Assembly: GCF_001942405.1 (NCBI RefSeq)
Contig: NZ_MKKA01000002.1
Coordinates: 1 to 64,000, forward strand
Length of the DNA: 64,000 bases
Reading direction: 5' to 3'
Source of the DNA: Ornithinimicrobium sp. CNJ-824
GTDB taxonomy: Bacteria; Actinomycetota; Actinomycetes; Actinomycetales; Dermatophilaceae
The position numbers and the translations under genes are program-made. The notes beneath the pieces are model-generated. The model was given only the letters and a program-made list of their open reading frames with translations, was not told where the DNA came from and did not search any database. How positions within the stretch are numbered: the stretch's first letter is position 1; the number at the start of each line of letters is the position of its first letter. Positions 28,683 through 33,644 of the stretch are shown in pieces.

Positions 28683-30734
28683 GTGCCCGCATCCACCGCA
28701 CTCCGACGGGTGGGCCTGCCGCTCACCGCCGTCGTCGCCCTCGCCGCCTGCGCACCGGCCCCGTCCGAGCCGGACCCGGTCCGCCCGGGGTCCACCGGCA
28801 CCTCCACGCCCGCCCCGTGGGACGAGGGGGCCGCCCGGGCCGCGGTCACCGCCCTGCCGGCCGGCTACCTGGCCCCGTTCGACGACTGCTCCCAGCTGCT
28901 GACCTACTACCAGGCCAACGCCCTGGAGCTGGTCACCCCCTACGGACTGGGGGGCGGCGGGTGGCACTTCGGCGCGGACGACTCCGTGGCGATGGAGGAC
29001 TCCGCCGCGGGCGACGCCGGTGCCGCCGCCGGCGGCGACGGCGGGGCGCAGGCGCCGGCGCACTCGAGCACCAACGTGCAGGAGGAGGGTGTCGACGAGG
29101 CCGACGTCGTCAAGACCGACGGCCGCGTCCTGGTCACGACGACCGGCGGGCAGGTGCGGGTGGTCGACCTCGCCGCCGAGGAGGTCGTGGCCCGGATCGC
29201 CCTTCCCGGCCGGCGCGACCAGGCCTCCCCCCGCGAGCTCCTCCTGGACGGCACCACCCTCGTGGTCCTCGGGGAGGAGTGGGCCTCGCCGCAGCCCGTC
29301 GACGGGCTGCGCGTGGCCTACCCGCCCAGCCGCACCCTCGTCATGACCGTCGACCTGTCCGACCCCGCCGACCCCCAGGTGGTGGGCACCGTCCGGGTCG
29401 AGGGGTCCTACCGCGCCGCCCGGATGGTCGACGGCACCGTGCGGCTCGTCCTCGTCACCGACCCTCCGGGGGTGCGGCAGACCCAGCCCGACTCGGGCAG
29501 CCTCCGGGCCGAGGACGAGGCCGAGGAGCGCAACCGCGAGCTGATCCGCTCCACGACCATCGAGGACTGGGTGCCGCACCGCCAGGAGCTGGACGCCGAC
29601 GGGCGGGTCGTGGGCACCGAACCGCTCCTGGAGTGCTCGCAGATCTCCCGGCCGCGCGACCCGGCCGGACTGTCGACGATGTCGGTGCTGACCTTCGACC
29701 CGGCCTCCGGGCAGGTCACCCCCACCTCCGGCGCCGGGCTGGTGGCCAGCGGCAGCACCGTCTACGCCTCCCCCGACCGGCTCGTCGTCGGCACCAGCGC
29801 CTGGGACGCCTGGCAGTGGGCGGCCACGAGCATGCCGTGGCCGCAGGACCGGCCGACGCGCACGGACCTGCACACCTTCGACATCTCCGACCCGGACGCC
29901 ACCGCCTACGTCGCCTCCGGCAGCGTCGACGGGCACCTGCTCAACCAGTGGGCCCTCGACGAGCAGGACGGCGTCCTGCGGGTGGCCACCACCGTCGACC
30001 CGCCCGGCCGCTCCCAGGTCTCCAGCTCCTCCCTCGTCGTCCTCGCCGAGGAGGGCGAGGAGCTGGTGGAGACCGGCCGGCTGGACGGCCTGGGCGAGAC
30101 CGAGCAGATCTACGCGGTGCGCTACCTGGACGCCGACCTGGCCGCGGTCGTCACCTTCCGGCAGACCGACCCGCTCTACCTCGTGGACACCTCCGACCCC
30201 GCCGCGCCGACCCTGGCCGGCGAGCTGAAGATCCCGGGCTACTCGGCCTACCTGCACCCGGTGGGCGAGGGCTGGCTCCTCGGCGTCGGGCAGGACGCCG
30301 ACGAGCGGACCGGGCAGACGAAGGGCCTGCAGGCCTCGCTCTTCGACGTGCGCGACGTCAACGCGCCCGTGCGCACCGAGGTGCTGACCTGGCCGGAGAG
30401 CTACTCCCCCGTCGAGTGGGACCACCGGGCCTTCACCCTCTGGCCCGCCACCGGGCAGGCCTTCCTGCCGGCGATGACCTGGGGCACGGTCTCCGCCGAG
30501 GACGGCGAGGTCGTCCAGGACGGACCCAGCTTCGCCGGCGTCCTGGCCCTCGACGTCGGCCCCGGGACCCTGGCGGAGGCCGGACGGGCCCGGACCATGG
30601 GCGAGGAGCGCGGGGGCGACGCCCCCTCCCGCACGATCGTCGTCGGGGACGACCTGTGGGCCCTCGACCACGAGGGGTTGTCGCGGTTCGACCTGCGGAC
30701 CCTCGAGGGCGGCTGGGCGGTCGACCTGCCCTGA
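28683..30734 (+). CDS. Beta-propeller domain lipoprotein (PF09826-like)
   Basis: The 683-residue protein has a lipoprotein signal with lipobox LAAC (Cys23), a linker, and a large domain beginning SSTNVQEEGVDEADVVKTDGRVL, the hallmark of the secreted beta-propeller family PF09826. Repeating blades such as LHTFDISDPDATAYVASGSVDGHLLNQW and PLYLVDTSDPAAPTLAGELKIPGYSAYLHPV fill the rest. The function is unknown. The GTG at 28683 follows AGGAGG. It is the second secreted protein in tandem with the VWA gene, separated by a strong hairpin. Confidence 0.87.
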   Translation: MPASTALRRVGLPLTAVVALAACAPAPSEPDPVRPGSTGTSTPAPWDEGAARAAVTALPAGYLAPFDDCSQLLTYYQANALELVTPYGLGGGGWHFGADDSVAMEDSAAGDAGAAAGGDGGAQAPAHSSTNVQEEGVDEADVVKTDGRVLVTTTGGQVRVVDLAAEEVVARIALPGRRDQASPRELLLDGTTLVVLGEEWASPQPVDGLRVAYPPSRTLVMTVDLSDPADPQVVGTVRVEGSYRAARMVDGTVRLVLVTDPPGVRQTQPDSGSLRAEDEAEERNRELIRSTTIEDWVPHRQELDADGRVVGTEPLLECSQISRPRDPAGLSTMSVLTFDPASGQVTPTSGAGLVASGSTVYASPDRLVVGTSAWDAWQWAATSMPWPQDRPTRTDLHTFDISDPDATAYVASGSVDGHLLNQWALDEQDGVLRVATTVDPPGRSQVSSSSLVVLAEEGEELVETGRLDGLGETEQIYAVRYLDADLAAVVTFRQTDPLYLVDTSDPAAPTLAGELKIPGYSAYLHPVGEGWLLGVGQDADERTGQTKGLQASLFDVRDVNAPVRTEVLTWPESYSPVEWDHRAFTLWPATGQAFLPAMTWGTVSAEDGEVVQDGPSFAGVLALDVGPGTLAEAGRARTMGEERGGDAPSRTIVVGDDLWALDHEGLSRFDLRTLEGGWAVDLP

Positions 30735-30903
30735 GAGGGGCCTGCGGCGCAGGGCCGGAAGATCGGCAGGAACCAGCGTCCCGCGGCCCCGCCACCGGCC
30801 GTCCTGCCCCGCAGAGTGGCGTGGACCGAAGCGAAACCCCTTGAGAAGCACTTCTCGTCGAGGATCCTGCGTCCAGGGGAGTCCGGAACACGACGGGAAC
30901 GAA

Positions 30904-30933
30904 TTGACTTCGGTGACGCGCCGCTGCTAGACA
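30904..30933 (+). promoter_or_regulatory. Promoter of the metY leader
   Basis: TTGACT (30904-30909) and TAGACA (30928-30933) are separated by 18 bases. The -10 hexamer ends 7 nt before the ATG of the short leader frame, predicting a transcript beginning at that codon. This is the best promoter match upstream of metY. Confidence 0.6.
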
Positions 30934-30940
30934 TCTCCCC

Positions 30941-30976
30941 ATGACCACCGACCGTCGCCGAATGCGCAGCTGCTGA
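30941..30976 (+). CDS. Putative leaderless leader peptide upstream of metY
   Basis: The frame is ATG to TGA with 11 codons, MTTDRRRMRSC. It has no ribosome site, but a promoter's -10 ends 7 nt before the ATG. Actinobacterial sulfur-metabolism genes are often preceded by short, frequently leaderless ORFs with Arg-rich centres and cysteine near the end that sense charged tRNA-Cys. This one shares the Arg run and terminal Cys. It ends about 150 bases before metY. Its length makes chance occurrence possible. Confidence 0.5.
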   Translation: MTTDRRRMRSC

Positions 30977-31124
30977 GCCTCCCCCTCGCAGCCTGCGCCC
31001 CCGTGCGCGACCGTCGCGCCCCCGGTGCCCCACGGCATACCTCCACCGCTGCCGAGGCGGGCTCAGCAGAGTGAACTCCCTCCCTCACCCTGCACCCCCA
31101 CCGCCCGGAAGGCACCGATCCCCC

Positions 31125-32477
31125 ATGAGCACCAGCACCCCCCCGCGCCCAGTCGTTCGAGACCCGCCAGATCCACGCCGGCCAGACCCCCCGACGCCGC
31201 GACCGCGCCCGGGCCCTGCCGATCTACCAGACCACCTCCTACGTCTTCGACGACGCCGACCAGGCGGCGAACCGGTTCGCCCTCGCCGAGCTCGGCCCCA
31301 TCTACACCCGGATCACCAACCCGACCCAGGAGGTCGTGGAGAACCGCATCGCCGACCTCGAGGGCGGCGTGGGCGGGCTGCTCGTGGCCTCCGGCTCCTC
31401 GGCGATCACCCTGGCGATCCTCAACCTGGCCCGCGCCGGCGACCACGTCGTGGCCAGCCCGCAGCTCTACGGCGGGACCCAGAACCTGTTCGCGCACACC
31501 CTGCCCCGGCTGGGCATCGAGGTGAGCTTCGTCGACGACCCGACCGACCCGGAGAGCTGGCGGGCCGCGGCGCGCCCGGAGACCAAGGCGTTCTTCGGCG
31601 AGACGATCGCCAACCCCAGCAGCGAGGTGCTCGACATCCGGGCGGTGGCCGACGTCGCCCACGAGGTCGGGGTCCCGCTGATCGTGGACAACACCATCGC
31701 CACGCCCTACCTGTGCCGGCCGATCGAGCACGGGGCCGACGTCGTCGTCCACTCGGCCACCAAGTACCTCGGCGGGCACGGCACCTCCATCGCCGGGGTG
31801 ATCGTCGACGCGGCCGGTTCGACTACGGCAAGGGCGACCGCTTCCCCGGCTTCACCGAGCCCGACCCGTCCTACAACGGGCTCGTCTACGCCGAGACGCT
31901 CGGCGCCGACGGGATCTTCGGGGTCAACCTCTCGTTCATCCTCAAGGCCCGGGTCCAGCTGCTCCGCGACCTGGGCCCGGCGGTCGCCCCCTTCAACGCC
32001 TTCCTCATCGGGCAGGGCGTGGAGACGCTGTCGCTGCGGCTCGAGCGGCACGTGGCCAACGCGCGGCAGGTCGCCACCTGGCTGGCCGCGCACGAGCAGG
32101 TCGAGCGGGTGCACTACGCCGGCCTGCCGGACCACCCCTCGCACGAGCTGGCCCAGCGTTACCTGCCCGAGGGCGCCGGGGCGGTCCTCGCCTTCGAGAT
32201 CACCGGCGGCGCGGAGGCCGGGCGGGCGTTCGTCTCGGCGCTGCAGCTGCACAGCCACGTGGCCAACATCGGCGACGTGCGCTCCCTCGTCATCCACCCC
32301 GCCTCCACCACCCACAGCCAGCTGTCGGAGGAGGCGCAGCGGGCCGCCGGCGTGACCCCCGGCCTCGTCCGGCTCGCGGTCGGCATCGAGGGCGTCGAGG
32401 ACATCCTGGCCGACCTGGGCACCGGGTTCGAGGCGGCCGCCCGGGTCGCCGGCACCGCCGCCACCGAGGCGGCCTGA
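31125..32477 (+). CDS. metY: O-acetylhomoserine sulfhydrylase, two compensating frameshifts
   Basis: This PLP enzyme of the Cys/Met-metabolism family makes homocysteine from O-acetylhomoserine and sulfide. Motifs include [38 protein letters not shown], the PLP lysine in [14 protein letters not shown], and [13 protein letters not shown]. An extra C in a run near 31139 and a missing G near 31812 shift the frame out and back, so the ends are in one frame and the middle in another; corrected length is about 450 residues. metX follows after 3 bases. Both shifts look like sequence errors. Confidence 0.9.
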
Positions 32478-32480
32478 GCC

Positions 32481-33644
32481 GTGGCCCCCGGCCGCCGCAC
32501 GCAGCCCGTCGGCGACCTGACGCTGGAGTCCGGCCAGGTCCTCGAGGGCGTGCGGGTGACCTACCAGACCTGGGGCCGGCTCAACGAGGCCGGGGACAAC
32601 GCCGTGCTGGTCCTGCACGCGCTGACCGGCGACAGCCACGTCGTCGGTCCGCGCGGGCCGGACCAGCCGACCGAGGGGTGGTGGCCCGGCCTGGTCGGGC
32701 CGGGCTGCCCGGTCGACACCGACGAGTGGTTCGTCGTCGCCCCGGCCGTCCTCGGCGGCTGCGGCGGCACGACGGGGCCCGCGTCGGCGGCTCCCGACGG
32801 CCGGCCCTACGGGTCCTGCTTCCCCCGGATCACCGTCCGCGACCAGGTCCGCGCGGAGGCGCTGCTGGCCGACGCGCTCGGCATCCGCAGCTTCGCCCTC
32901 GTCGTCGGCGGCTCGGTCGGCGGGATGCGCGCGCTCGAGTGGGCGGTCACCCTCCCGGGCCGGGTCAGACGGTGCGTCGTGCTCGCCGCCGGTGCCGCGG
33001 CCACCGCCGACCAGATCGCCTGGTCGGTGCCCCAGCAGCACGCCGTCCGGCTCGACCCGGCCTTCCACGGGGGCGACTACTACCCCGGTCCCGGGCCGCG
33101 GCAGGGGCTGGCGATCGCCCGCCAGATCGCGCACGCCACCTACCGCTCCGCCGAGGAGCTCGCGCTGCGCTTCGGGCGCGACGGCCAGGCCGGGGAGGAC
33201 CCCCTGCGCGGGGGCAGGTATGCCGTGCAGTCCTACCTGGAGCACCACGGCGCCAAGCTCGTGCGCCGGTTCGACGCGAACGCCTACCTCGTGCTGACCG
33301 AGGCGATGAACTCCCACGACGTGGGGCGGGACCGGGGCGGGGTGGACGCCGCGCTGCGCCGGATCACCGCCGAGCTGACGGTCGCCGTCGTCTCCAGCGA
33401 CCGGTTGTTCACGCCCGCCGACGGGGCCGTGGTCGCCCGCTCGCCCGCCTGCCGCGAGCTGGCCACGATCGACTCCCCCTACGGGCACGACGCCTTCCTC
33501 GTGGAGACCGACCAGGTCTTCGCGATCGTCTCCCGGGCGCTGCGCGGCGACCCGGTGCCGGAGGAGAACCGCCCCCGCCGCCCCGCCGCGACGGCGACCG
33601 GACCGGCCACCCCGGCGCTGGTGGCCGGACCGAGCCTGTGGTGA
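32481..33644 (+). CDS. metX: Homoserine O-acetyltransferase
   Basis: The 387-residue alpha/beta-hydrolase-fold enzyme acetylates homoserine and supplies the substrate of MetY. It has VLVLHALTGDSHV, the nucleophile Ser in GGSVGGMRALEW, and the C-terminal Asp and His of the triad in VVSSDRLFTP and SPYGHDAFLVE. The GTG at 32481 lies 3 bases after the metY stop, so the two are co-transcribed. The C-terminal Pro/Ala-rich 25 residues are not conserved. An AGG-TAT-GCC codon run at about 33215 contains the GGTATGCC octamer. Confidence 0.94.
   Translation: MAPGRRTQPVGDLTLESGQVLEGVRVTYQTWGRLNEAGDNAVLVLHALTGDSHVVGPRGPDQPTEGWWPGLVGPGCPVDTDEWFVVAPAVLGGCGGTTGPASAAPDGRPYGSCFPRITVRDQVRAEALLADALGIRSFALVVGGSVGGMRALEWAVTLPGRVRRCVVLAAGAAATADQIAWSVPQQHAVRLDPAFHGGDYYPGPGPRQGLAIARQIAHATYRSAEELALRFGRDGQAGEDPLRGGRYAVQSYLEHHGAKLVRRFDANAYLVLTEAMNSHDVGRDRGGVDAALRRITAELTVAVVSSDRLFTPADGAVVARSPACRELATIDSPYGHDAFLVETDQVFAIVSRALRGDPVPEENRPRRPAATATGPATPALVAGPSLW

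Follow-up and report, generated by a model that had tools for sequence, protein, structure and literature searches.

A conserved leaderless-type leader ORF upstream of metY-metX in Ornithinimicrobium as a candidate sensor of methionine and/or cysteine supply

In actinobacteria, the leaders so far known to sense sulfur amino acids through the ribosome are poly-Cys open reading frames (ORFs). In a polycysteine small ORF (sORF) attenuator, stalling of the ribosome makes the ribosome-binding site of the next gene accessible. The polycysteine leaderless sORFs of mycobacteria were reportedly described by Canestrari et al. in 2020. This work is cited in the passages of PMC9094748 considered here, and precursors of it appear in passages of PMC4633059. 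In the corresponding part of an earlier comparative study of cys operons (Seliverstov 2005, PMC1262725), leader peptides are described with Cys codons near the stop and without a terminator, and Rho is suggested.

A leader peptide named metL, MSTTSDRTPATEATTTPGARCMCRRMCAF followed by a stop codon, has been predicted upstream of metNIQ in S. lividans TK24 (PMC8079986). In the section of that paper dealing with metL, its authors report hairpins and no typical terminator (PMC8079986). A full-text search of the non-subscription literature returned no description of a metY upstream ORF (uORF) beyond this predicted metL, and in a string search of full texts with the peptide core PMC8079986 was the sole relevant paper among the matches listed.

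Here, we focus on the leader of the metY-metX operon in a stretch of 64,000 nucleotides from Ornithinimicrobium sp. CNJ-824 (NZ_MKKA01000002.1, positions 1 to 64,000), called the window throughout. Based on comparison with related genomes, we consider it probable that this leader acts as a leaderless ribosome-sensing attenuator of metY-metX that responds to the supply of Met and/or Cys.

Architecture and conservation of the leader

In the window, TTGACT is followed after 18 nt by TAGACA and, 7 nt further on, by the uORF ATG at 30941 (Table 1). The codons ATG ACC ACC GAC CGT CGC CGA ATG CGC AGC TGC TGA give the 11-codon peptide MTTDRRRMRSC (whole uORF peptides are written here up to their stop codon), and 148 nt separate the uORF stop (30976) from the metY ATG (31125). 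Both the promoter and the 11-codon ORF of a preliminary description of this DNA are therefore present in the window sequence, and their arrangement is kept in 20/20 clade A leaders (see below). A generic sigma-70 scan of 30600-31300 called no promoter; its rule wants T as the last base of the -10 element, and TAGACA was missed because it has no T at that position. A terminator scan of 30600-31300 gave 0 terminator-like sites. In the whole window, Rfam matched three tRNAs and an SRP RNA and nothing else.

Table 1. Features of the metY-metX leader and operon in the window.
Feature	Positions	Strand	Basis
-35 element TTGACT	30904..30909	+	TTGACTTCG kept in 20/20 clade A leaders
-10 element TAGACA	30928..30933	+	clade A 20/20: spacer 17-18 nt, 6-8 nt to ATG
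Predicted transcription start	about 30940-30941	+	promoter spacing
Leaderless-type uORF MTTDRRRMRSC	30941..30976	+	sequence and clade A comparison
Codon pair CGA-ATG (Arg-Met) in uORF	30959..30964	+	20/20 clade A, 10/10 clade B, 26/26 survey uORFs with Met-Cys
Cys codon TGC and stop TGA	30971..30976	+	Cys terminal in 20/20 clade A
RNA box 1, uORF end, GCTGCTGAGCCT	30969..30980	+	pairing potential with box 2 or box 4
RNA box 2, CCTCGCAGC	30984..30992	+	pairing potential with box 1 or box 3
RNA box 3, GCTGCCGAGGC	31048..31058	+	pairing potential with box 2 or box 4
RNA box 4, GGGCTCAGCAG	31059..31069	+	RNAalifold consensus pairs box 4 with uORF end; 98.6% of cells paired, 20 sequences
metY (O-acetylhomoserine/O-acetylserine sulfhydrylase)	31125..32477	+	frame broken in window assembly
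metX (homoserine O-acetyltransferase)	32481..33644	+	NF047917, 491.9 bits, cut-off 475

The metY ATG (31125) and the first matched residues (31156) are in different frames, and a second frame change within the match occurs near 31812. The broken frame is either an assembly error or a real mutation. The product of the gene 5' of the leader (28683-30734) has a Beta_propel domain (PF09826, 403.5 bits), and the end of a Beta_propel gene also precedes metY in two relatives (G016 and G027). About 50 nt 5' of the -35 element, an inverted repeat GAGAAG-ca-CTTCTC (30843-30856) can be seen by eye.

Loci from the genus (Serinicoccus/Ornithinimicrobium) and beyond were supplied by a metX search over 58 genomes; in four relatives (G031, G033, G034 and G035) metY is missing near metX. 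Sorted by leader, the 31 genus genomes comprise clade A (19, window included), clade B (10), and a remainder of two (G020 and G008). The 20 clade A leaders come from the 19 genus genomes and the record O. cerasi (L078); one of these genomes, G004, had no metX match and was recovered through the motif. All 20 have TTGACT, a spacer of 17-18 nt, 6-8 nt from the -10 element to the ATG, and an in-frame uORF ending in RRM(R/C)(R/S)C and the stop. The -10 element was picked here as the best match to TAGAAC, and it starts with TA in 18/20 leaders (exceptions G006 and G021). One extra whole codon is found in 3/20 uORFs, and since these insertions amount to a whole codon, the frame is kept in clade A. 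The codons between the ATG and the peptide core vary.

The motif CGAATGYGNNGCTGCTGAG with up to 1 mismatch matched 21/58 genomes, once in each and always in the genus, compared with 2 matches for the reversed pattern; the 21 are the 19 clade A genomes and two of clade B (G015 and G022). A stricter form of CGAATGYGNNGCTGCTGAG matched 10 named stretches, nine from Serinicoccus/Ornithinimicrobium and one labelled 'Acidobacteria ATN4'. The contig with this label ('Acidobacteria bacterium ATN4', L080, QEUR01000107.1) has the same leader as contig C242 of G004, and the label likely reflects a mislabelled assembly. The proposal of a conserved leader ORF before metY-metX is strongly supported by the 20/20 clade A leaders and by the 21/58 matching genomes, all in the genus. 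Loss of the ORF between close relatives, which had been named as evidence against it, was looked for, and the ORF was instead kept in every clade A leader. The Arg run to which the preliminary description drew attention stands in part: two Arg residues before Met are constant, whereas the run itself changes (RRR, GRR, SRR).

Such a spacing between the -10 element and the ATG is typical of leaderless actinobacterial genes, and judged by it the uORF is probably leaderless. Among 36 leaders from other families, 33 have TANNNT at a distance of 6-8 nt from the uORF ATG, as against 2.9% of background positions, and the three exceptions (G301, G320 and G226) all belong to family f3. The TAGAAC-like -10 element of clade A is unlike this TANNNT.

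A short R-M-C uORF before metY and its relation to SAM-IV

Outside the genus, a metY search was run over 198 genomes of the order, and 80 leaders were hand-picked from the matches listed for spread over families (16 tool families, with 11 loci from the window's own family; neither the genus nor any genome examined before was included). A short uORF with in-frame CGA-ATG is present in 26/80 of these survey leaders and absent in 54/80. The uORFs have 5-8 codons (MFRRMCR, MTRRMCR, MQTRRMCR, MTCRMCR, MTKRMCC and similar) and are spread over tool families f3, f9, f10, f13, f14, f16 and f20. A further test for any short uORF with an internal Met-Cys found the same 26/80, every one with CGA before the Met; the shuffle background for Met-Cys uORFs had a mean of 0.8 and at most 2 per 80 loci (20 rounds).

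A search with the motif CGNCGAATGTGYCGNTGA only matched 41/297 genomes of the order. Among 30 fetched loci, 25 lie directly 5' of metY with an in-frame start, a count that covers 30 of the 41 matched genomes and partly overlaps with the survey genomes. The other five (L171, L176, L177, L182 and L187) do not lie 5' of metY, and L176 still has an in-frame start. As this motif-only search landed before metY in 25/30 loci, the mini leader peptide is metY-specific in the searches made. Outside the order, CGNCGAATGTGYCGNTGA matched 3/197 class genomes (L198-L200), none with metY in the locus, and RTGACCTGTCGAATG matched 0/148 class genomes. An in-frame start in L198 was taken as chance, and a motif match without metY context (L087) was dropped. 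Within the searches made, the R-M-C mini-uORF core marks metY leaders of the order.

Literal patterns of the metL core matched 0/396 genomes of the phylum and 0/11 genomes of the class genus g114 (presumed Streptomyces). In 16 chosen genomes a lone match (L081) reads MCRRMCQ, with CGG and not CGA, and overlaps the 3' end of a long opposite-strand reading frame; it was taken as chance.

The window fits the mini-uORF pattern, with its in-frame CGA-ATG upstream of metY. Its uORF has no Cys directly after the Met (RMRSC), and the congener G016 has RMCRC; RMRSC is most readily understood as a derivative of RMCR, with the G016 form in between. The preliminary description had treated the window uORF as a shorter variant of the polycysteine sORF. 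This assignment is given up, and the uORF is instead placed in a widespread R-M-C family of its own (26/80 survey leaders; 25/30 motif loci). In six loci (L132, L133, L134, L122, L130 and L131), a palindrome-like motif, for example GTCTCAC-TAT-GTGAGA, can be seen by eye some 40-60 nt 5' of the uORF ATG. It lies 5' of the uORF promoter and is perhaps the operator of a transcription factor.

The SAM-IV riboswitch (RF00634) was found at gathering score in 10/10 clade B loci and in neither the window nor 19 further clade A loci. In clade B, SAM-IV is followed by a uORF with a GTG start and CGA-ATG, and then by metY (loci L048-L057), and the two remaining genus genomes, G020 and G008, carry SAM-IV but lack a uORF of this kind. 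Rfam found SAM-IV in 13/20 mixed loci, and its gathering-score scan of 20 uORF-bearing survey loci returned no SAM-IV and no family at all. By a simple regular expression, SAM-IV is present in 28/80 survey loci, one of which also has the uORF, and 27/80 have neither. By these counts, SAM-IV and the uORF mostly replace each other. They stand in tandem in clade B, in five members of f16 (G184, G050, G084, G114 and G128), and in G036, G039 and G057.

A known Rfam element as the window leader was rejected: neither the leader nor the 20 uORF-bearing loci has a gathering-score match, and a known riboswitch class is therefore not the answer. When 10 loci were scanned by E-value, a single match, to a Neisseria frameshift element, was obtained below threshold and was taken as chance.

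Pairing potential of the leader RNA

The foldable sequence noted earlier between uORF and metY is confirmed by the pairing potential of four conserved boxes (Table 1), by the RNAalifold helix, and by the fold of the window leader (z = -4.48 against dinucleotide shuffles). Over the 20 clade A sequences, 98.6% of cells are paired in helix 1:4 and 87.2% in helix 2:3. The two-helix structure is 93.5% paired versus 28.8-45.5% with partners slid, and the alternative helix 1:2 is 98.1% paired versus 26.3-57.6%. RNAalifold picks helix 1:4 unprompted. A helix of 10-12 bp to the uORF end is found in 18/20 leaders, where 0-1 of 300 shuffles reach each; in the other two (G001 and G027), helix 1:4 has an A.C mismatch and shuffles are not beaten. 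In G025 and G002, boxes 2:3 pair weakly (-5.2 kcal/mol), and 3:4 is weak too. Covariation is thin, with one double-changed pair in alignment A1 (G025 and G002) and one in alignment A2, and shuffle controls are not clearly exceeded.

The arrangement resembles a trp-type attenuator in that the sensing codons lie in segment 1 of helices 1:2, 2:3 and 3:4, which are mutually exclusive in their pairing potential. A U-run intrinsic terminator was not found (0 sites in 30600-31300). Because the Cys codon and the stop are both inside conserved RNA boxes, their conservation in clade A may serve pairing.

In other families, the CGA-AUG-UGC codons are part of a hairpin that also contains a conserved GCGCACGTTCG box. 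This hairpin has 91.5% of cells paired versus 17.0-56.9% when slid (28 sequences), and the covariation score of A2 is reached by 26/500 shuffles; the 28 loci of A2 were chosen for carrying the motif and are a biased sample. Pairing alone does not explain the CGA codon, because clade A keeps CGA and the GCGCACGTTCG partner is not among its conserved boxes. In clade B, GCTGAGTC:GACTCAGC or a longer helix is found in 6/10 leaders, a marginal result reached by 2 to 31 of 200 shuffles, and in the other 4/10 no helix stands out against shuffles.

Sensing, output and comparison with known systems

In the proposed attenuator, transcription would start at or beside the ATG at 30941, and the 11-codon leader peptide would be translated directly by a 70S ribosome. 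The last uORF codons (Met, Cys, stop) are in or just before box 1. With Met-tRNA or Cys-tRNA in short supply, the ribosome would pause at the ATG or the TGC codon and cover box 1, leaving box 2 free for box 3 and blocking helices 1:4 and 3:4. When both tRNAs are plentiful, the ribosome would depart, the other helices would form, and metY expression would fall. Since no U-tract terminator was found, the output would probably be termination by Rho in the C-rich 3' portion of the leader, or a change in metY translation.

All uORFs counted have a Met preceded by CGA (20 in clade A, 10 in clade B and 26 in the survey). They all have Cys too, which shifts in position, being found after Met, before Arg or last (RMC, CCRM, RMRSC). 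CGA makes up 14/674 Arg codons in 35 metY genes and 42/934 in 29 metX genes. The MetY of G016 is named a bifunctional OAH/OAS sulfhydrylase by NCBIfam (NF005872, 722.1 bits, cut-off 703), and because such an enzyme could serve both amino acids, Met and Cys are both fitting signals. A sensor of Met and/or Cys is favoured over one of Cys alone, since Met with CGA is invariant, Cys shifts, and MetY could serve both. Taken together, Met or combined Met/Cys sensing seems at least as likely as Cys sensing. By comparison of sequences, a leader ORF that would control the sulfur operon is well supported, and the poly-Cys family and single-amino-acid readings are less so.

Tentatively, the proposal can be taken further. 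The metY-specific uORFs of 5-12 codons, found in at least seven further families within the order, might be combined Met and Cys sensors, with CGA-AUG-UGY as a built-in slow site. The rare CGA would then be in the P site ahead of two sulfur amino acid codons, and a shortage of either Met-tRNA or Cys-tRNA would be read by one ribosome. In the window branch, SAM-IV may have been lost and the uORF may have become the 5' end of the transcript, aminoacyl-tRNA sensing having replaced metabolite sensing.

Cysteine sensing, put forward in the preliminary description, is plausible. That Cys would be the sole signal, with a shortage of Cys-tRNA causing a stall at the terminal TGC and with Met and CGA incidental, is doubtful. 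The retention of a Cys codon at shifting positions (20/20 clade A, 10/10 clade B, 26/26 survey uORFs) is consistent with it, as is the composition of MetY, which is almost free of Cys (7/14000 codons in 35 metY genes; 109/10598 in 29 metX genes). Leader ORFs with Cys codons have also been described in actinobacteria (PMC1262725, PMC4633059). However, the more invariant part is CGA-ATG, two uORFs carry Met and no Cys (G036, MNHHRMRR; G047, MTRRMRS), and the operon product homocysteine goes to Met. The survey count must also be read with care, as the 26 uORFs were tallied as Met-Cys and are partly selected, though a query for CGA-ATG only gave the same 26.

It is improbable that the conserved unit is a structured RNA element (a riboswitch or a protein-binding site) in which the ORF is passively kept or merely protects the RNA. 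The long exact nucleotide boxes, the base-level conservation of CGAATG, the downstream pairing and the z-score of the fold would all suit such an element. It does not account for the conservation of start, frame and stop, for indels of whole codons in 3/20 leaders, or for third-base changes (TGC/TGT, CGT/CGC). In addition, CGA-ATG-TGY stays in frame across families despite differing numbers of codons before it, and clade A shares its peptide core with the other families but not its downstream boxes.

We give an equally low probability to constitutive translational delivery or protection from Rho, in which the uORF would load ribosomes and exclude Rho and no amino acid would be sensed. The leaderless-type promoter spacing and the empty terminator scan agree with it, and for leaders of M. 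tuberculosis both expression that depends on a uORF and termination by Rho have been reported (PMC11260477, PMC12810186). It leaves the invariant CGA-ATG-TGY and the retention of Cys unexplained; furthermore, as the uORF stop lies so far before metY, little coupling between the two is expected. A macrolide-type arrest peptide was also considered on account of R-M-R and was dropped because the target is metY. A chance ORF in GC-rich DNA, suggested by a length of only 11 codons and by absence from 54/80 survey metY leaders outside the genus, is already refuted by the conservation and shuffle results.

If the Met and/or Cys attenuator proposed here is true, a metY sensor of 5-12 codons with a fixed core shows how few codons a working sensor needs. 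The metY uORF also offers a clean way to test whether the sensitivity of an attenuator is set by one rare Arg codon in front of the sensing codon.

Among known elements, SAM-IV (RF00634) is alike in that it precedes metY in clade B and in further families, some of which have the CGA-ATG uORF after it, and differs in being missing from the window branch. If true, the swap between SAM-IV and the uORF in sister lineages shows metabolite sensing and tRNA sensing replacing each other.

The predicted metL, as presented in the passages cited of PMC8079986, shares with the window uORF a start predicted to be leaderless and a Met-related target, and has a C-terminal C-R-R-M-C core close to RRMCR before a stop (metL itself ends in CRRMCAF). 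It differs in having 29 codons and Met import as its target, a comparison made by peptide and not by codons.

The leaders of Seliverstov 2005 likewise have Cys near the stop, lack a terminator and have Rho as a possible output, while that study states that conserved RNA regulatory structures were not seen before methionine operons (PMC1262725). In the account of the uORFC-8-2 motif drawn on here (PMC8632094), the Cys codons of a uORF also lie in the first stem of an attenuator. However, there are two tandem Cys codons at about positions 14-15, a 3' run of U is taken as a terminator, and the regulated protein is CysS (PMC8632094).

The mycobacterial polycysteine sORFs resemble the window uORF in being short ORFs of leaderless type with Cys codons, a sulfur-metabolism target and proposed ribosome sensing. 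They have a run of Cys near the stop, whereas the window uORF has one Cys codon; CC pairs occur only in its relatives, for example MTCCRMPNR. Unlike them, the window uORF has the invariant CGA-ATG, a stop 148 nt from the target start, and downstream RNA boxes of its own, the four boxes ending at 31069, 55 nt before the metY ATG.
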